Made by a program: the position numbers and the translations under genes
In this document: one piece after another, positions 164 through 8,180 of the stretch
Layout: every line of letters starts with the position of its first letter
Numbering within the stretch: position 1 is the first letter of the stretch
The notes under the pieces: model-generated
What the model was told of the DNA's origin: nothing
What the model saw: the letters and a program-made list of their open reading frames with translations, nothing else
Database searches by the model: none
Origin: a virus
Length of the DNA: 21,894 nt
Strand: one strand, 5' to 3'
Virus record (IMG/VR): IMGVR_UViG_3300045431_000299
Location: 1-21,894 of that record

Positions 164-636
164 GCTGGTCAAAGAAATACAAAAAATCAATAAACTGCGA
201 CAACCCAAAGGGATTCTCCCAAAGGGCGCATTGTCAAGGTAGAAAGAAAAGAAAACTCAAAGAGTTCAAGGAGTATATCACCGAACAAGTGGAACTCGAA
301 AACAAGGTTTCCGACTTCGTTGACTTTGCCACCAACTACCTTGGACTTAGTAAAAGACCAGATGTTACTCTACTGACAGTAAGAGAACCAAATATGACTA
401 CTGCATATTATAATATCAAAGACGGAAAAATGAAGATATATTCAAAGGGTAGAGCATGTTTTGATATTTGCAGAAGTATTGCACATGAGATGGTTCACCA
501 AAAACAACACGAAGAAATAGATAATCCAGACGATCTTGATGGTTCAACTGGATCACCACATGAAGATGAAGCAAATGCAGTTGCAGGGCGTATGATCAGA
601 ACATATGGGGAACAGGTGCCAGGATTTTATGAATGA
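160..636 (+). CDS. HExxH metallopeptidase-like protein with N-terminal Cys/Lys phage module
   Basis: 158 residues. A zinc-peptidase signature HEMVH lies at residues 109-113 (H109, E110, H113) in a helix-like context (SIAHEMVHQKQHEE). A possible third ligand is E137 in the downstream HEDEANA stretch, as in gluzincin-type enzymes. Residues 5-30 form a separate basic module with two cysteines (C13, C25) around NPKGFSQRAHC, which I recall at the ends of several marine T4-like phage proteins. Between them, FKEYITEQ (36-43) resembles a capsid-targeting/prohead-protease site. The ATG overlaps the upstream stop by 4 nt (ATGA) and no strong Shine-Dalgarno is visible, so translational coupling is likely. 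The fold (SprT-like or other) and the substrate are unknown. The peptidase motif is clear; activity is inferred. Confidence 0.7.
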   Translation: MSWSKKYKKSINCDNPKGFSQRAHCQGRKKRKLKEFKEYITEQVELENKVSDFVDFATNYLGLSKRPDVTLLTVREPNMTTAYYNIKDGKMKIYSKGRACFDICRSIAHEMVHQKQHEEIDNPDDLDGSTGSPHEDEANAVAGRMIRTYGEQVPGFYE

Positions 637-1294
637 TATAAAAAAACAACTTCTGATAGAGATCAAACAAAGATTTGGTTCATTTGATAATAAAGAAATC
701 AAAATAACCGATAAGAGGTTTCCATTACAAATAAACAATAAACACAGAAAAGATGAAAAACTAGCAAAGGTAAAAGCAAAAGAAGAAATGACATCTGGTT
801 ACCACAGAGGATCAATCAAAAAGGCAGTTCTTCCAACATCTTATAGATTTAAGCCAACAGCATTTAATAAAGGAAAACTTTCATACTCTGGATACACAGA
901 GTCGGGAACACACGAATATACAATAAAGACCGATGGAACCCCCGCTTTGCTTAAAATAAATCACGGAAAATCAAAGAGGGGAACTATGAAGAAAGGTTCT
1001 TTAACAACCAGTAACATAGAAATAGATTTGGGTAAAAATCAACCAACAGAAGAATTGTTACAAAGTATGATACCCTCTTTAGCACATCACATAAGTTCTC
1101 ATAGTCCAGACACAATAAACATAAAAACAAAAGATATGAAAGTTTTTTATGACAAATTAATAAATGCAGTTTCCTCAAAGTATAGAGTATCATCTAATGA
1201 ATCGGAAGATGGAACACATAATTGGACACTACAAAGTAGAAAAATAACACCAAAGATTCAATCGTTGATTAAGTCGTTACTAGATAAACAATAA
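629..1294 (+). CDS. Hypothetical phage protein
   Basis: I do not recognise this 221-residue protein. The start at 629 is preferred over the in-frame ATG at 605: it overlaps the upstream stop by only 8 nt, matching the spacing of neighbouring genes, and AGGA at 621-624 sits just before it. The N-terminal 60 residues are Lys-rich and probably helical. The middle has a Tyr/Gly/Thr-rich stretch (SGYTESGTHEYTIKTDG, then LLKINHGKSKRGTMKKG) that looks beta-rich. The C-terminal third (LLQSMIPSLAHHISSHSP...) looks helical and ends LIKSLLDKQ. No signal peptide, membrane segment or metal motif is visible. Being embedded in the late block suggests a virion or host-takeover role, but this is not shown. 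Confidence 0.75.
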   Translation: MNDIKKQLLIEIKQRFGSFDNKEIKITDKRFPLQINNKHRKDEKLAKVKAKEEMTSGYHRGSIKKAVLPTSYRFKPTAFNKGKLSYSGYTESGTHEYTIKTDGTPALLKINHGKSKRGTMKKGSLTTSNIEIDLGKNQPTEELLQSMIPSLAHHISSHSPDTINIKTKDMKVFYDKLINAVSSKYRVSSNESEDGTHNWTLQSRKITPKIQSLIKSLLDKQ

Positions 1295-1304
1295 GGAGAA
1301 ACAT

Positions 1305-1565
1305 ATGGCAAGCAACCCAAGATTCGCAGCAAATAATTCAACTAGAGACGCATCAAGAGAGGCAAGAGAAAGAATTGCAAACAGAAGAACTCTTCCAGGC
1401 GGTTCTTTACTACGACCAGTTGAAGATGGTGCATCTAGACGGTATATTGACAGAAGTAGATCTGCAAGAGCAAATGGTGTAGGAAATCAACCAGTTGATC
1501 CAGCACGAAATGCAAAAGATGTAGATCATGCAAAGAGAGATCAAAGAAGACAAAGCAAAGGATGA
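1305..1565 (+). CDS. Small Arg-rich protein carrying one NAKD repeat
   Basis: 86 residues, very rich in Arg, Asn, Ala and Ser, with almost no hydrophobic core, so probably disordered or nucleic-acid-associated. A strong Shine-Dalgarno (AAGGAG, 1292-1297) precedes the ATG. The N-terminal half has Arg-rich helical stretches (DASREARERIANRR). Residues 62-82 contain a 21-residue unit ending NAKDVDHAKRDQRR that recurs twice in the next reading frame. The gene stops at TGA (1563-1565), after which the same frame continues into the next ORF with no other stop. I recognise no family. A DNA- or RNA-binding virion protein is a guess based on composition. Confidence 0.65.
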   Translation: MASNPRFAANNSTRDASREARERIANRRTLPGGSLLRPVEDGASRRYIDRSRSARANGVGNQPVDPARNAKDVDHAKRDQRRQSKG

Positions 1566-1757
1566 TATTTGAATCCAAGAGCACCAATACATCCTTCTAT
1601 AAACGCAAAAGACATTGATCATTTAAAGAGAGATCAAAGAAGGATGGGTATTGTCCCTAAAAAATTTGAAGATAAATACAAAGAGAAAAAATATCAACCA
1701 ATAGTTGCTGCATTTAACGCAAAAGATAGAGATCATTTTCAGAGAGATAATAAAAGG
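1488..1757 (+). repeat. Three-copy 63-nt coding repeat (21-residue NAKD unit)
   Basis: Copies lie at 1488-1550, 1581-1643 and 1695-1757. The protein consensus is [QA]P[IV]xxxxNAKDxDHxxRDx[RK]R. The last 42 nt are best conserved at DNA level: all three share AACGCAAAAGA or AATGCAAAAGA, then GATCAT, and AGAGAGAT. Units start 93 and 114 nt apart, so they are not a simple tandem array; linkers of 10 and 17 codons differ in sequence. Conservation of the motif rather than the linkers implies selection on a short peptide that may bind a repeated partner. Confidence 0.85.
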
Positions 1758-1772
1758 AAAAAATATGCCTAA
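1569..1772 (+). CDS. Small basic protein with two NAKD repeats (TTG start, in frame with the preceding gene)
   Basis: 67 residues from a TTG codon. Shine-Dalgarno AAAGGA (1557-1562) lies 6 nt upstream, overlapping the end of the preceding gene. Repeat units begin APIHPSINAKD and QPIVAAFNAKD, with cores NAKDIDHLKRDQRR (residues 12-25) and NAKDRDHFQRDNKR (50-63). The frame is the same as that of the 1305-1565 gene, separated only by one TGA and one TAT codon. The two may be translated as coupled proteins, be read through as one protein of about 155 residues, or be a nonsense-split gene. No ATG is available in this frame before the repeats. Function unknown. It overlaps the next gene by 8 nt. 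Confidence 0.6.
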   Translation: MNPRAPIHPSINAKDIDHLKRDQRRMGIVPKKFEDKYKEKKYQPIVAAFNAKDRDHFQRDNKRKKYA

Positions 1773-2067
1773 TTATGGATTTGTGTGTGAGGGGTGTGAA
1801 AAATCATTTGATGTTTTAACAAGCATTGCAAATAGAGACAATCCTCTAAATGAAGCATGTCCTCATTGCAACAAAAAAGGAAAGATTGTAAAAGACTTTC
1901 AAGGTATACGATGTAGTTTGTCAGCAGACATGACACTAACACCAGACAAAGCAACTGGTGGAAGATGGTCTGAGCTCATGGGAAAGATGAAAAAAGGTCT
2001 TGCTCCTAGATATCATAAAAAGATAGACGCCGCAACTAACATGACGGGTAGAAGATGGAAAGGTTAA
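1765..2067 (+). CDS. FmdB-like zinc-ribbon protein
   Basis: 100 residues. It begins MPNYGFVCEGCEKSFDV, the classic opening of the FmdB/CxxC_CxxC zinc-ribbon family, with C8xxC11 and C32PHC35 as the predicted zinc ligands. After the ribbon come IVKDFQGIR and a basic tail with MTLTPDKATGGRWSELMG and HKKIDAATNMTGRRWKG. ATG 1765 is chosen over upstream in-frame codons because the family signature starts exactly here and AAAAGGA (1752-1758) is well spaced. It overlaps the previous gene by 8 nt and the next by 13 nt. Family members are small putative regulatory or nucleic-acid-binding proteins; the phage role is unknown. Confidence 0.8.
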   Translation: MPNYGFVCEGCEKSFDVLTSIANRDNPLNEACPHCNKKGKIVKDFQGIRCSLSADMTLTPDKATGGRWSELMGKMKKGLAPRYHKKIDAATNMTGRRWKG

Positions 2068-2960
2068 CATTCAAACAATTTCTGTTAAAAGAGGCAAAGG
2101 GTTACTTTGGTCAATATGGAGAAACTGATGCAAGAACTGCCGCTCTTATTGCATCGAATAGGTTGCCGGATAGCGATGCAGCAAGCCGAGAAAGACAAAC
2201 ACACTTTTGGGCCGGTGAGGGGGATCCACAAAATAGAACTCAAAAAGATAGAAGTAATCTATCTACTAATTACACCGATACAATACAGTCACTAAAAGCA
2301 CAAGGAAAGGCTCCTAGAACAAGAAACTATAGAGAGTTAGTTAATAGAAATTCAAGGATAGGTGTTGCTGGTGTTAGATCGGTTCCAAATCCAAGCGAAT
2401 TATATGAAGCAATAAAACTTTCAAGTGGCAAGATAACTTCTCCAAAACTTAGGGTATTTGATTTTGATAATACTATTGCAAACACTTCATCCTCTGTTAT
2501 CATAAAAGACAAAAAAACTGGAAAGTCTAGAAAATTAACATCTGCTGAGTTTGCAAGATATAAACCAGCAAAACACGAAGAAACAGACTTTTCTGAGTTT
2601 TCTAGGGTAATAAATCCACAAGCAATAGTTCAAATACAAGGAATAATGAGTAATTTAGCAAGAAAAAAGAGACCATATACTGTATTAACTGCTAGACCTC
2701 AAAGTTCCTCAAGAGAAATAATAAGATACCTGAAAAAACAAGGATTACATACAAAAGGTGTAAGAGTTATTGGATTGGGAACTTCGGATCCACAAGCAAA
2801 AGCAAGATATCTGGGTGATCTTCTGAGAAGAGGAAAACATAGTCATTTAGAGTTTTTCGATGATCATAAAGAAAATGTTCACCATGTGGCAAAATTACGC
2901 AAAGAATTTCCAAGTATAAATATAAAAGCAAGACACATTGCATACGGAGAAGCACAATGA
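2055..2960 (+). CDS. HAD-superfamily phosphatase with N-terminal capsid-targeting-like leader
   Basis: 301 residues. The HAD core is in the second half: motif I VFDFDNTIANT (D136 nucleophile, D138, T140), motif II VLTARP (T212) and motif IV EFFDD (D269, D270). A lysine between them, near residue 250, could serve as motif III. The order and spacing suit a small HAD phosphatase resembling the phosphatase half of phage polynucleotide kinases, but no kinase P-loop is present. The first 14 residues (MERLTFKQFLLKEA) resemble the T4 internal-protein targeting sequence with a possible L-K-E/A prohead-protease site. Residues 20-125 are polar and unassigned. A 5'- or 3'-end phosphatase carried in the virion is plausible; the substrate is unproven. 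It ends in an ATGA overlap with the next gene. Confidence 0.75.
   Translation: MERLTFKQFLLKEAKGYFGQYGETDARTAALIASNRLPDSDAASRERQTHFWAGEGDPQNRTQKDRSNLSTNYTDTIQSLKAQGKAPRTRNYRELVNRNSRIGVAGVRSVPNPSELYEAIKLSSGKITSPKLRVFDFDNTIANTSSSVIIKDKKTGKSRKLTSAEFARYKPAKHEETDFSEFSRVINPQAIVQIQGIMSNLARKKRPYTVLTARPQSSSREIIRYLKKQGLHTKGVRVIGLGTSDPQAKARYLGDLLRRGKHSHLEFFDDHKENVHHVAKLRKEFPSINIKARHIAYGEAQ
2915..2922 (+). promoter_or_regulatory. Candidate T4-type late promoter octamer inside the HAD gene
   Basis: Exact TATAAATA, 34 nt before the ATG of the 2957 gene. The octamer is identical to those at 5449 and 10874, which lie between genes. Here it overlaps codons for Ser-Ile-Asn-Ile, so chance occurrence in A/T-rich coding DNA is quite possible. 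Confidence 0.3.
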
Positions 2961-4312
2961 ACAATAAAATATATGTAAATTGGTTATCAGAACAAATTAA
3001 AATAAATCAAAAAGAAATAATTTCAGTTTGTGGTAAAATACAACCAGCTACCGATGTTGAACAACTGGAAGAAGCAAAAAGTAACAAAAAAACAGTTGCA
3101 AGGGCCGTAAGCAAAAATAACCCTAAAAAATCAAAAATGTCAGATATGAAAGAATTAGCAGCTGCAATTGCAGATGCTATGCATTCCCATACTGTGAGTG
3201 TAGTTGATGCTTTAAGGGGTGCAGGAAAAGATGTAGTTTCAACTGACGAAGTAGATCCAGATACACAATCCAGATTTCTTGCTCCATTTTCAAAAAACCC
3301 AGTTTCAGTAAAATATGGAGCACAAGCTGGTTATACTAAGTCAACCCACAGAGGAGATGATGTCAGAAACGCATTAGCACAAATATATTCTCTGGAGGAA
3401 GGGAAAGAGGCTGCGGCCCGAGCGGCCCGAGCGGCACGAGCTGCAGCTAGAGCTGCAGCAAGCGCAGAAGCAGTGTCTAGAGCTGCGGCGACCGGTGGAG
3501 CTAGTTTAAGTTCAACTCCTGGAGCAATTGTACCCGTTTCACCAGCAACATCTGGCGTTGCATCAAACACCGGAGGTTCTATTGTTCCTTCTGGGTCTTC
3601 GTCTTCAGGAGGAAGTGTCCCTTCTGGGCCTTCGTCATCTAGATATATTCCTCCAGCCGAAGCTGCTAATGTAGGAGGAGTTCCGTCATCAAACGATCCT
3701 GTAATTGCTAAGGTTGCAGCACAACTAGACATACAGGGAAATGCTGGTGGATCTTCTAGTAGACCAAACATAGAACTAGCACCAGATGCAACAGGACCAA
3801 AAGAAAGAAATCCGGTCCTTCCGGAAGTGCCGTCTGGGGCCATTTCCCAAGTTGTTAGAAGCACGGAACAACCAAAGGCCCCAGAACCAGAAAAAGCAAT
3901 TGCTCCTGCAAGTATGTCTTCAATAACTACCCAGCCCGTTCCAATAGAAAAAGAAAGAACACAATTACCTAGCGAAGTTCAACAATCTTCACAATCTCCA
4001 GTTCGAAGAGGAGGGGGCCGCGCAGCTGCCGGCGGAGGAGAACCACCATCTGGTGGTGAAGGAAAACTTCCACAAGGAAGTGGAGAACCCAAACGTCCAA
4101 GTCAACCCCCAGTCGTTCCAACTACTTCATCAACAACAGAACCTTCAAAAAGAAGAATTAAAGGGGTATTTGTTACTGGCAGCAATAACAAATTGAAGAA
4201 TGTAGTCGGAAACATAGGTAAAATCAATATCGGTAGTGGTGATTTTAGAATAGGCGACACGAAAAAAATGGTTGCTGAGATATTGCAAAGAAAAATTAAT
4301 CTGCTAAAATAA
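2957..4312 (+). CDS. Low-complexity Ala/Pro/Ser/Gly-rich phage protein
   Basis: 451 residues; family not recognised. The N-terminal 150 residues look folded (helical segments MSDMKELAAAIADAMHSHTV and VVDALRGAGKDVV). Residues 151-178 are an almost pure Ala/Arg stretch with an RAARAARAAARAA core, probably a long amphipathic or basic helix. Residues 180-400 are Ser/Pro/Gly/Val-rich and probably disordered, with near-repeats (VPSGSSSS, VPSGPSSS). The C-terminal 50 residues (KRRIKGVFVTGSNN, then NIGKINIGSGDFRIGDTKK) look folded again and end in a helix. The layout is head, linker, tail, which suits a virion tether or internal protein. The linker DNA is more G/C-rich than its surroundings. The start overlaps the previous stop (ATGA). 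Confidence 0.75.
   Translation: MNNKIYVNWLSEQIKINQKEIISVCGKIQPATDVEQLEEAKSNKKTVARAVSKNNPKKSKMSDMKELAAAIADAMHSHTVSVVDALRGAGKDVVSTDEVDPDTQSRFLAPFSKNPVSVKYGAQAGYTKSTHRGDDVRNALAQIYSLEEGKEAAARAARAARAAARAAASAEAVSRAAATGGASLSSTPGAIVPVSPATSGVASNTGGSIVPSGSSSSGGSVPSGPSSSRYIPPAEAANVGGVPSSNDPVIAKVAAQLDIQGNAGGSSSRPNIELAPDATGPKERNPVLPEVPSGAISQVVRSTEQPKAPEPEKAIAPASMSSITTQPVPIEKERTQLPSEVQQSSQSPVRRGGGRAAAGGGEPPSGGEGKLPQGSGEPKRPSQPPVVPTTSSTTEPSKRRIKGVFVTGSNNKLKNVVGNIGKINIGSGDFRIGDTKKMVAEILQRKINLLK
3413..3439 (+). repeat. 9-nt tandem repeat encoding Ala-Ala-Arg
   Basis: Three consecutive 9-nt units (GCGGCCCGA, GCGGCCCGA, GCGGCACGA) code for Ala-Ala-Arg. They run into degenerate GCTGCAGCT/AGAGCTGCA units up to about 3460. 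The tract is strikingly G/C-rich for this A/T-rich window, a typical slippage-prone microsatellite. Confidence 0.85.
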
Positions 4313-5017: not shown

Positions 5018-5396
5018 AGAGGTAAACAAAAGAAATTCGGTTACATGGACTGCATGTAACGATGACTCTAGATCAATGATTTGGAGAAATATATTTGTTG
5101 AAAAGTTTGGTGGTAATTTTTCTAGAGAAAGAACTGGTTGGACTTGGAAAGAGGATAAGAAGCAAGAAATACCCAGAAAATGTTGGATTTTTTCAAAGGA
5201 CAATAAAGAAGTAAGAATAACACATTTCTCCGATTATTGTAAAGATAATAATCTAAGTAGATCTGCGATGTACGAAGTTATGAACGGAAAAAGAAAACAA
5301 CACAAGGGGTACACATTTGTGGCAGAAGAATTAAATGGTGTTAAAATAATTAATTTAAACAACCATAACATAGAAACTCCCTCCGAGGAAATCTAA
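4998..5396 (+). CDS. Small NUMOD-like DNA-binding protein, no nuclease domain seen
   Basis: 132 residues. ATG 4998 is chosen over the TTG at 4968 because AGGAA sits just upstream. The C-terminal half contains HFSDYCKDNNLSRSAMYEVM followed by NGKRKQHKGYTF, a helix-turn-helix-like unit matching the NUMOD/IENR-type DNA-binding repeat that accompanies HNH and GIY-YIG homing endonucleases. The N-terminal half (VTWTACNDDSRSMIWRNIF, then FGGNFSRERTGWTW and KCWIF) is rich in Trp and unassigned. No HNH, GIY-YIG or LAGLIDADG catalytic motif is visible. It may be a regulator, or the leftover DNA-binding part of a free-standing homing endonuclease. It is the last gene of its block, 20 nt before a terminator hairpin. 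Confidence 0.7.
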   Translation: MKQLRLEEVNKRNSVTWTACNDDSRSMIWRNIFVEKFGGNFSRERTGWTWKEDKKQEIPRKCWIFSKDNKEVRITHFSDYCKDNNLSRSAMYEVMNGKRKQHKGYTFVAEELNGVKIINLNNHNIETPSEEI

Positions 5397-5415
5397 AAAT
5401 AGTCACATTTGTGCC

Positions 5416-5443
5416 AACCAGAGGATTGCCCTCTGGTTTTTTT
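5416..5443 (+). terminator. Rho-independent terminator
   Basis: A perfect 9-bp stem AACCAGAGG (5416-5424) / CCTCTGGTT (5430-5438) with 5-nt loop ATTGC is followed by an unbroken T run to 5443. It ends the first plus-strand block, 20 nt after the NUMOD-like gene and directly before a late promoter. Confidence 0.92.
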
Positions 5444-5448
5444 ATCTG

Positions 5449-5456
5449 TATAAATA
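5449..5456 (+). promoter_or_regulatory. T4-type late promoter
   Basis: Exact late consensus TATAAATA in a 78-nt intergenic gap, 5 nt after the terminator T run and 18 nt before the ATG at 5475; AGGA lies between. In T4 this octamer is recognised by the gp55 sigma factor with the gp45 sliding clamp. It sits inside a 6-bp inverted repeat (CTGTAT AA ATACAG, 5446-5459). Confidence 0.85.
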
Positions 5457-5474
5457 CAGTACAGGAACTAATTT

Positions 5475-8180
5475 ATGGCAAAAAGTATAGTCGTAACATA
5501 TGGTAGATTCAATCCCCCAACGGCAGGACACCACTTACTAGCACAAGAAGTGATGAGTCGGGCGGGAGAAATGGGTGCAGACCATATGATCTATGGTAGC
5601 ATGAGTGCAGATCCCAAAAAGAATCCACTTACCCCAGAACAAAAAGCAAAGCACATGGGAAGAGTTCTAGGAACTCCAAGAGTCCATGTTGGTGAGGGTG
5701 CAAGAAATCCATTTGAGATGCTTCATCATTTAAGTCAGCAAGGTTACGATACAGTTCATATGGTTCTTGGTTTGGACAGAGCAGAAGAAGGCATATTTGA
5801 TAAAATGAAACAGTATGTTGCAAGTGGAGAATTGCCAGGTATTGGTAAACTTGGAATCAAGAAACTTACAAGTTCAACTGCCGGAGAGGCACGCAGCGAT
5901 GATGCCAAAGGTATAGCTAGTGTTTCCGGTACGAAGCAAAGAGCTTTTGTTTCTGCTGGAGACTTTGCTGGATTTAGAAAAGGTCTTCCCGGACATGTTT
6001 CTGAAAAACATGCAAGAGAACTTTTCGATGATGTTAAAGCTGGCATGCAAGGAGCAACTAAATCCACTCCAAAAAAGAAAGTTGCAAAGAAAGTAAAGAA
6101 GAAACTCAAAGAAAGTTTATACTTTGGTCCTTTGTCATTTGTCATAAATTCTATGTTAACTGAATCAGAAAAGAAAACAAGAGTAGAAAGAAAAACATCA
6201 CAGAACACAAGAAAAAGAAATCAAAGGGCAAACGACAAGGCAAAACAAGACGCCGGTGATTTGTCACAATACATGATTGTGACAACTAAGCAAAATAGAA
6301 TTGAAATTATTACCAAAGGTGCTTTTAGAAAAAGTCAACATGTAATTGTGACCCCACCAGAAAAAATGAGTAGTGGTGCTATGTCGAAAGCTGCCAAAGA
6401 CAAAAACTTTAGAGCAACACCAACTTCTATAAAATTGGGGTTTGGGAAGAAAGAAGATTTAGAAAAAGAAGGAAAGTCACAGAAGAAAAAACCACAGGCG
6501 AAAGGTAAGAGCAAAAAACAAGAACAAGCACCACCACCCCCACCACCAAGAGCTCCTAGAGTAATAAAAGGCGGTAAATCAATTTACCCCGATGACGATC
6601 ACGGTGCAACCGACATGGAATTCGGTATTGTTGCATTATTCAATCAAATGAGATCAGGAATGTCATTTAAGGATCAAATTAAATCCGGACTACTGACGCC
6701 AGCACAATCACAAGAGCTAGAAAGAAGTCAAACTCTAGGTTCGGCCGGACAAAGAATAGTTGCTCAAATAATTCAATCACTACCAAAAGGTAATTGGGTG
6801 GCGATTCACACTGGTGGTAAAAAAGATCAACCAATAACAAAAGAATGGAAAGCATCAGGTGGCTCTGACAATACACCAAAAGCAGACTTAATTCTCCAAA
6901 ACCAAAATACAGGAGAAACAATAAGAGCATCAGTAAAGTGCGGAGAAGCACAACTAATGTCTGGAAAAACTCCAGAAACATCTGGTACATTTATATCTGC
7001 GTTAAATATTGCATCAAATCAAAAAACTCTTCTTGAAGGAACTGAAAAAACAGTAAAGAAGATAATGAAAAAGATGAGAGAAGGTCTTGCAATTTCCGAA
7101 AAGACAAAAAAAGGTCCAGTAAGTCTTTATATTGCTGGTGGGGAGTATGAAGACAAAGATGCAGAAATTAAAAGGATAGAAGACCTGCACAAAGAAATTA
7201 CTGGGCAATTAGAAGATCTATTCGAACAAGATGAAAACTTTGCAGCCGGTGTGGTATACGAAGCATTGACTGGTGTTGGAAAGTTTGGCGAAGGATCTAT
7301 GGGAACCGCAACTCACGTTTTAAGCATGAACAAAGATGGAACAAATGCAAGTCTTGTTGCTATAGACTGGGAATATGCCAAGAAAGTAGCAAAAGCAATA
7401 AAAATTGGTATTAAATTTAAATCATCTGCAATAGAACCAAAAGAAATTAAAAAGAAATGGAAAGAATTTAAAAAGAAATTAGGAAGAAATCCAACACTTA
7501 AGGAAGATTTCAGAGCATATAACTTCTGGAGTGCTTTCAGAATCTTCCTACCAAAGATGAATACACTTGAAGAACTATTTTCATACAACTCAACTCTACT
7601 TGCTCTTCTAGAAGAAAAACAAACTTCAGAAGATGTGCCAGAACCACAAACAGAGTATGAAGCACAGCAGTATATCAAAGAAGCAGAAGAATATATCGGT
7701 AATGATCCTGCAAAACTTATGACATTCTTGGGTGTTGATGTAGATCAATTAACTACTAGTGCGGTAGATATGACTGATTTTGCTCAAACAGATAGTGGTC
7801 TTTATAATACCATAATTATAAATGGTAAAGAAATTGACATACCAGTTCAAAGAGATATGGATATTTCAAAACTAGAAGTTCCAAACGGATTGAATGACGA
7901 TAGCATAGAGAACTATATGAAGGAATCATATATTCAACGTGCTTTGAATTTCCTACTAGAAAGAAGAAACTATAGAAAAGAGTATGATAATTACCAAGGT
8001 CGTTCAGATCAGATTAAGAAGAGATCAAGTCGCAACAAGGCAAGAAGACTTCTCAAGAAGATGGGTAGAGTAAGAGATGGGGACGGAAAAGATGTTGATC
8101 ACAAGAATGGCAACCCAAAAGATAATAGTGTTAAAAATCTAAGAGTTACCAGCAAGTCCCACAACAGATCCAAGAGGTAA
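5475..8180 (+). CDS. Three-part fusion: nucleotidyltransferase, nuclease-like middle, HNH C-terminus
   Basis: 901 residues. Residues 1-190 are a cytidylyl/NMN-adenylyltransferase-type domain: GRFNPPTAGHH (10-20) is the (H/T)xGH signature and SVSGTKQRAF (149-158) is the second, ISSTxxR-like, motif. Residues 200-360 are Lys-rich, end in a PPPPPP run (353-358), and include INSMLTES, a protease-site-like stretch. Residues 365-640 hold a nuclease-like region: PKADLILQ (468-475), RASVKCGEAQLMSGK (484-498) and VYEALTGVGKFG (594-605). This is D-x(16)-K like PD-(D/E)XK, but with S where E is expected. Residues 842-901 are a zinc-less HNH unit (KDVDHKNGNP, NL, SHNRSK; H876, N888, H896). It is the first gene of block B. 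A virion-delivered multi-enzyme protein is an inference; the first and last domains are clear. Confidence 0.8.
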   Translation: MAKSIVVTYGRFNPPTAGHHLLAQEVMSRAGEMGADHMIYGSMSADPKKNPLTPEQKAKHMGRVLGTPRVHVGEGARNPFEMLHHLSQQGYDTVHMVLGLDRAEEGIFDKMKQYVASGELPGIGKLGIKKLTSSTAGEARSDDAKGIASVSGTKQRAFVSAGDFAGFRKGLPGHVSEKHARELFDDVKAGMQGATKSTPKKKVAKKVKKKLKESLYFGPLSFVINSMLTESEKKTRVERKTSQNTRKRNQRANDKAKQDAGDLSQYMIVTTKQNRIEIITKGAFRKSQHVIVTPPEKMSSGAMSKAAKDKNFRATPTSIKLGFGKKEDLEKEGKSQKKKPQAKGKSKKQEQAPPPPPPRAPRVIKGGKSIYPDDDHGATDMEFGIVALFNQMRSGMSFKDQIKSGLLTPAQSQELERSQTLGSAGQRIVAQIIQSLPKGNWVAIHTGGKKDQPITKEWKASGGSDNTPKADLILQNQNTGETIRASVKCGEAQLMSGKTPETSGTFISALNIASNQKTLLEGTEKTVKKIMKKMREGLAISEKTKKGPVSLYIAGGEYEDKDAEIKRIEDLHKEITGQLEDLFEQDENFAAGVVYEALTGVGKFGEGSMGTATHVLSMNKDGTNASLVAIDWEYAKKVAKAIKIGIKFKSSAIEPKEIKKKWKEFKKKLGRNPTLKEDFRAYNFWSAFRIFLPKMNTLEELFSYNSTLLALLEEKQTSEDVPEPQTEYEAQQYIKEAEEYIGNDPAKLMTFLGVDVDQLTTSAVDMTDFAQTDSGLYNTIIINGKEIDIPVQRDMDISKLEVPNGLNDDSIENYMKESYIQRALNFLLERRNYRKEYDNYQGRSDQIKKRSSRNKARRLLKKMGRVRDGDGKDVDHKNGNPKDNSVKNLRVTSKSHNRSKR

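Follow-up and report, generated by a model that had tools for sequence, protein, structure and literature searches.

The question raised by this locus is why a single reading frame that carries a recurring sequence unit should be broken by one stop codon. The window, i.e., the whole stretch of DNA that was analysed, measures 21,894 bases and takes in the whole of an IMG/VR virus record. Translation of its plus strand from position 1305 to 1772 yields one frame with one internal stop, the TGA at 1563-1565, and a terminal TAA at 1770-1772. As had been noticed in a sequence-only reading, the two open reading frames, ORF1 (1305-1565) and ORF2 (1569-1772), are in register, and the TGA is all that separates them. 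Coupled expression of two forms, programmed readthrough, and a recent nonsense split had been offered as explanations. In place of two forms of one gene, an ancestral gene followed by an inserted partial duplicate is considered the better description. Probably, ORF1 is a complete gene with its ancestral TGA, and ORF2 is a mini-gene that arose by partial duplication and would be translated by coupling or reinitiation. The features of the locus are as follows.

629 to 1294, plus strand: upstream syntenic gene, ~220 aa, synteny anchor
1305 to 1565, plus strand: ORF1, small basic protein gene, putative ancestral member of a syntenic family; homologue at L004 3726-3998 with 56% identity over 88 aa
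1491 to 1550, plus strand: unit copy 1 (PVDPARNAKDVDHAKRDQRR), overlapping the predicted C-terminal helix of ORF1
1557 to 1562, plus strand: Shine-Dalgarno sequence AAAGGA inside the 3' end of ORF1, at a distance of 6 nt from TTG 1569
1563 to 1565, plus strand: TGA, ordinary stop of ORF1; TGA also in the L004 homologue, at the equivalent place
1569 to 1772, plus strand: ORF2, putative inserted mini-gene (ATGCCTAA), 67 aa, TTG start, pI 10.2, 8-nt overlap with the next gene
1584 to 1643, plus strand: unit copy 2 (PIHPSINAKDIDHLKRDQRR), in ORF2
1707 to 1766, plus strand: unit copy 3 (PIVAAFNAKDRDHFQRDNKR), in ORF2
1765 to 2067, plus strand: zinc-ribbon gene (FmdB-like, Zn_ribbon_8), 100 aa, Shine-Dalgarno sequence AAGGA at 6 nt, synteny anchor

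The repeat unit on either side of the stop

The unit PxxxxNAKDxDHxxRDxxR occurs once before the TGA and twice after it, in agreement with what had been read from the sequence. At the DNA level, the repeat copies span 1486-1554, 1579-1647, and 1693-1761, with spacings of 93 and 114 nt, both of which are multiples of 3; over these 69 nt the later copies are 67-71% identical to the first, and within the unit itself the copies differ by 25-32%. Comparison of ORF1 with ORF2 gave a protein score of 82 (maximum of 2000 shuffles, 50) and a DNA score of 32 (maximum of 500 shuffles, 20). Because both scores exceed those of all shuffles, the repeat similarity across the stop is not due to chance but lies far above it.

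The ORF1 protein comprises 86 aa with a pI of 11.6, and its gene is preceded by the Shine-Dalgarno sequence TAAGGAG at 6 nt. Neither ORF1 nor ORF2 gave a significant profile match in Pfam or PHROGs, and the family profile found no match among the PDB sequences. The AlphaFold model of ORF1 was kept out of the fold searches because of its low confidence (mean pLDDT 64); its best-supported part is the C-terminal helix of residues 70-85 (pLDDT about 80), which overlaps the unit. As a guess, the repeated, short, basic, and helical unit might serve as a nucleic-acid- or protein-binding tail of variable dosage or copy number.

The small basic gene in related contigs

Protein searches of viral contigs and phage records gave no match for ORF1 and no homologue of ORF2, and the degenerate DNA pattern of the unit was unmatched in the viral contigs. 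As these direct searches gave no relatives, the latter were reached through the zinc-ribbon gene and flanking genes. Eight related IMG/VR contigs were considered, namely, L004 (the same contig as L003, L006, and L024), L005, L008, L009, L010, L011, L023, and L025; L008 and L011 are nearly identical at the locus, which leaves seven lineages. Among the genome contigs, no relative of the zinc-ribbon gene was found. A search with the upstream peptidase-like gene returned 80 loci, and none of the new ones holds the 1305-1772 locus. The isolated phages pf16, BUCT-ZZ01, and SUMAE were set aside, the genes before their zinc-ribbon-like genes being unrelated by inspection.

The order of an upstream ~200-aa gene, a small basic gene, and the zinc-ribbon gene is common to all eight contigs, with one additional 174-aa gene preceding the small gene in L025. 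No stop interrupts the small gene in any of them (8/8); it forms one frame, which comes to its end immediately ahead of the zinc-ribbon gene. It encodes 90 aa in L004, 88 in L025, 91 in L008 and L011, 96 in L009, 90 in L010, 77 in L023, and 151 in L005. The pI values of the family range from 10.4 to 11.9, and ORF1 alone matches the family in size and basicity. The closest homologue, the L004 protein, aligns with ORF1 from end to end, and the TGA that closes its gene directly precedes the zinc-ribbon ATG (GGACTGATAATGCC); at the junction, L004 ends in ...CAGGACTGATAATGCC, and the window reads ...AAAGGATGATATTTG. Since L004 stops at the equivalent place with the same codon, the TGA at 1563-1565 is most likely the ancestral stop, a placement that is pinned by this one close homologue. 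Alignment in related phages had been proposed as a check on the conservation of the TGA, and in the closest homologue the codon is indeed conserved. The other members are 13-25% identical to ORF1, which is close to the alignment limit or under it, and it is chiefly gene order, size, and charge that would speak for their kinship.

The syntenic small gene of L005 (L005:3534-3989) is built differently, with tandem units of ~30 residues (SGNxFxVPExxSAPIKSLQKRMETxQ). These units represent a different expansion of a possibly related tail unit; by the visual similarity of weakly conserved units, this multi-unit gene suggests that the number of tail units changes repeatedly in the family.

The existence of such long multi-unit versions would be compatible with a once continuous gene of ~155 aa in the window lineage that a recent nonsense mutation, or else an assembly error, divided at 1563. 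This is very unlikely, since the version is short in 7 of the 8 related contigs, the nearest included, and ORF1 alone matches the nearest homologue in its full length and its stop. A split of this kind would call for separate losses of the downstream part in the nearest relative and in several remoter ones, and it would leave the functional-looking Shine-Dalgarno sequence and start, exactly at the junction, to coincidence.

Programmed or basal readthrough of the TGA, which would give a fused protein of ~155 residues with three units, draws on the common frame of both sides and on the L005 protein, whose 151 aa at this position come near to the length of the read-through product. A shared frame alone, however, has a chance of about one in three, and the L004 gene has its TGA at this very position and no homologous sequence behind it; in none of the eight related loci is a downstream frame conserved behind the stop. 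TGA terminates 11 of the 22 gene models in the window, which upholds the earlier description of it as an ordinary stop and shows no reassignment. No significant stimulatory structure was found 3' of the TGA (fold z -0.98), nor any Rfam element at the locus, and the good Shine-Dalgarno sequence and start make readthrough unnecessary. Among phages, the A1 extension of the Q-beta coat protein is produced by stop-codon readthrough. The window resembles that case in having an open frame behind an in-frame TGA, but differs from it in that the closest homologue lacks the extension, which comes with a Shine-Dalgarno sequence and start of its own and with no conserved readthrough context. Readthrough is, hence, held to be highly improbable, and an elaboration in which regulated readthrough would supply an 86-aa and a 155-aa three-unit form, next to a 67-aa form, as three variants of tail dosage, is extremely improbable. 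With L004 stopping at the same codon and a single frame before the zinc-ribbon gene in all eight relatives, neither the readthrough nor the nonsense-split option of the sequence-only reading is supported. An uninterrupted frame in homologous phages had been named there as evidence against the proposal, and such frames do occur in 8/8 relatives; the contradiction is superficial, though, the downstream segment being absent, except in L005, rather than read through. When an in-frame stop lies between repeat-sharing ORFs, homologues should be compared before readthrough is called.

The segment behind the TGA and its probable translation

Between the TGA and the zinc-ribbon ATG, the window is ~207 nt longer than L004, and this segment is seen in the window genome only, as against the eight related loci. 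On parsimony, it would have been gained by duplication in the window lineage and not lost repeatedly elsewhere. According to this scenario, ORF1 would have been a complete small basic-protein gene with the TGA as its ancestral stop, and the phage lineage would have acquired the segment between that stop and the zinc-ribbon gene in the form of two diverged copies of the C-terminal unit of ORF1, which would make up the separate 67-codon gene 1569-1772. Ribosomes ending ORF1 at the TGA would rebind at AAAGGA 1557-1562 to initiate at TTG 1569, and the 8-nt overlap at the other end of ORF2 would hand them over to the zinc-ribbon gene. That the duplicated segment carried the stretch of stop, Shine-Dalgarno sequence, and start as well was discarded, as the tails after each unit are not significantly similar (P 0.15-0.96).

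In phage genomes, partial tandem gene duplication yields small paralogous ORFs. As in such cases, the extra copies lie just downstream of the parent, on the same strand and tightly packed; unlike them, only the C-terminal unit is concerned, it is duplicated twice, and the start is a non-ATG codon. What is most likely at work is the usual evolution of phage genomes and not the readthrough of a stop codon. The locus would illustrate a route of small-gene birth, in which a tail unit duplicates behind the stop codon of its own parent gene. The Shine-Dalgarno sequence of the next gene is already in place at the end of the parent, so that the copy would become translatable with little further change.

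Several observations indicate that the ORF2 insert looks coding. Its codon-usage score is +0.43 bits/codon in frame and negative in every other frame, with 0.33-0.35 for neighbouring genes, and in shuffles a frame stays open over this length with P=0.0023. Copy 1 compared with copy 2 gives a pS of 0.60 and a pN of 0.16 (pN/pS 0.26), with an amino-acid identity above the expectation for random substitution (P=0.01); copies 2 and 3 give a pN/pS of 0.95, i.e., no constraint, these selection signals being based on 20 codons and, hence, on small samples. The value near 1 for copies 2 and 3, together with the failure of the searches to find an ORF2 homologue, would suit an untranslated relic of duplicated DNA. 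In the eight related records, ORF2 was not matched at E<=1, a weak negative given the very short query. The relic is nevertheless thought unlikely, in view of a frame that has stayed open with gene-like codon usage despite the 25-32% divergence of the unit copies, the constraint between copies 1 and 2, and the 8 nt shared with the next gene, an overlap of the kind that tightly packed genes have.

It had been claimed that the downstream part, unless reached by readthrough of the TGA, must begin at TTG. No start other than TTG 1569 covers both downstream units, which sustains the claim in this sense; an in-frame ATG also exists at 1644 (RRMGIV), with no Shine-Dalgarno sequence at a usable distance, and a start there would exclude the second unit. 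The ATG at 1562, which overlaps the TGA, was rejected, as it opens a very short frame only. The Shine-Dalgarno sequence reported across the end of the first gene was found at its expected place; AAGGA at 6 nt before the TTG is identical, in sequence and spacing, to that of gene 1765 and is a longer match than in several long genes of the window. Sites with Shine-Dalgarno sequence plus start have a frequency of 0.00087 per nt per strand, from which the chance of meeting one in frame in the four codons that follow the stop is derived as roughly 0.3%. In L025, the zinc-ribbon gene has TTG (4300-4302) where relatives have ATG, behind GGAGG at the same junction; no other in-frame start is available, and a TTG start would therefore be in use within the clade.

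Experiments in E. coli and Haloferax have demonstrated that reinitiation works at distances of few nt and fades at about 14-38 nt; coupling is possible where the start follows the stop by a few nt, and the -8 nt overlap is one of the most frequent arrangements at gene junctions (PMC10666635). Because of the Shine-Dalgarno sequence, the TTG use in L025, the 3-nt gap between the TGA and the TTG, and the 8-nt overlap, coupling or reinitiation would be the most likely mode of ORF2 translation; together with the coding signal of ORF2, this favours the coupled start that had been suggested among the original options. Known systems of termination-reinitiation coupling (PMC6728339, PMC10666635) likewise have stop and start within few nt, with the Shine-Dalgarno sequence inside the upstream gene, and the 8-nt overlap from ORF2 to the next gene is of the same kind. 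Unlike the commonest coupled pairs, with overlaps of -4 or -1 nt, the present pair has a +3 nt gap and a TTG start, and its coupling is predicted from sequence.

Genome context

The source of this cyanophage-like fragment is, by its sequence features, a relative of the T4-like cyanophages. On the minus strand, UvsX-, helicase-, and primase-like genes are found, as are genes for ThyX and a class II ribonucleotide reductase. ThyX and the reductase were identified by Pfam, and the UvsX-like gene is a putative assignment by reading of the sequence; the helicase shares about 56% identity with its counterparts in Synechococcus phages. Further along, at 5475-8180, a 901-aa protein has an HNH domain at its C-terminus and a cytidylyltransferase-like N-terminus that scores just below the Pfam cut-off. 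A long low-complexity stretch rich in Ala, Pro, Ser, and Gly (window 3400-4250) lies within the 451-aa gene at 2957-4312; the L004 gene at the same place (5180-6169) is shorter, with 329 aa. At 2055-2100, a HAD/kinase-like gene begins with MERLTFKQFLLKEAKG, and starts similar to F-K-x-F-[IL]-x-E also open genes in the related contigs; these gene starts presumably recall the T4 capsid-targeting sequences that are cut by the prohead protease.
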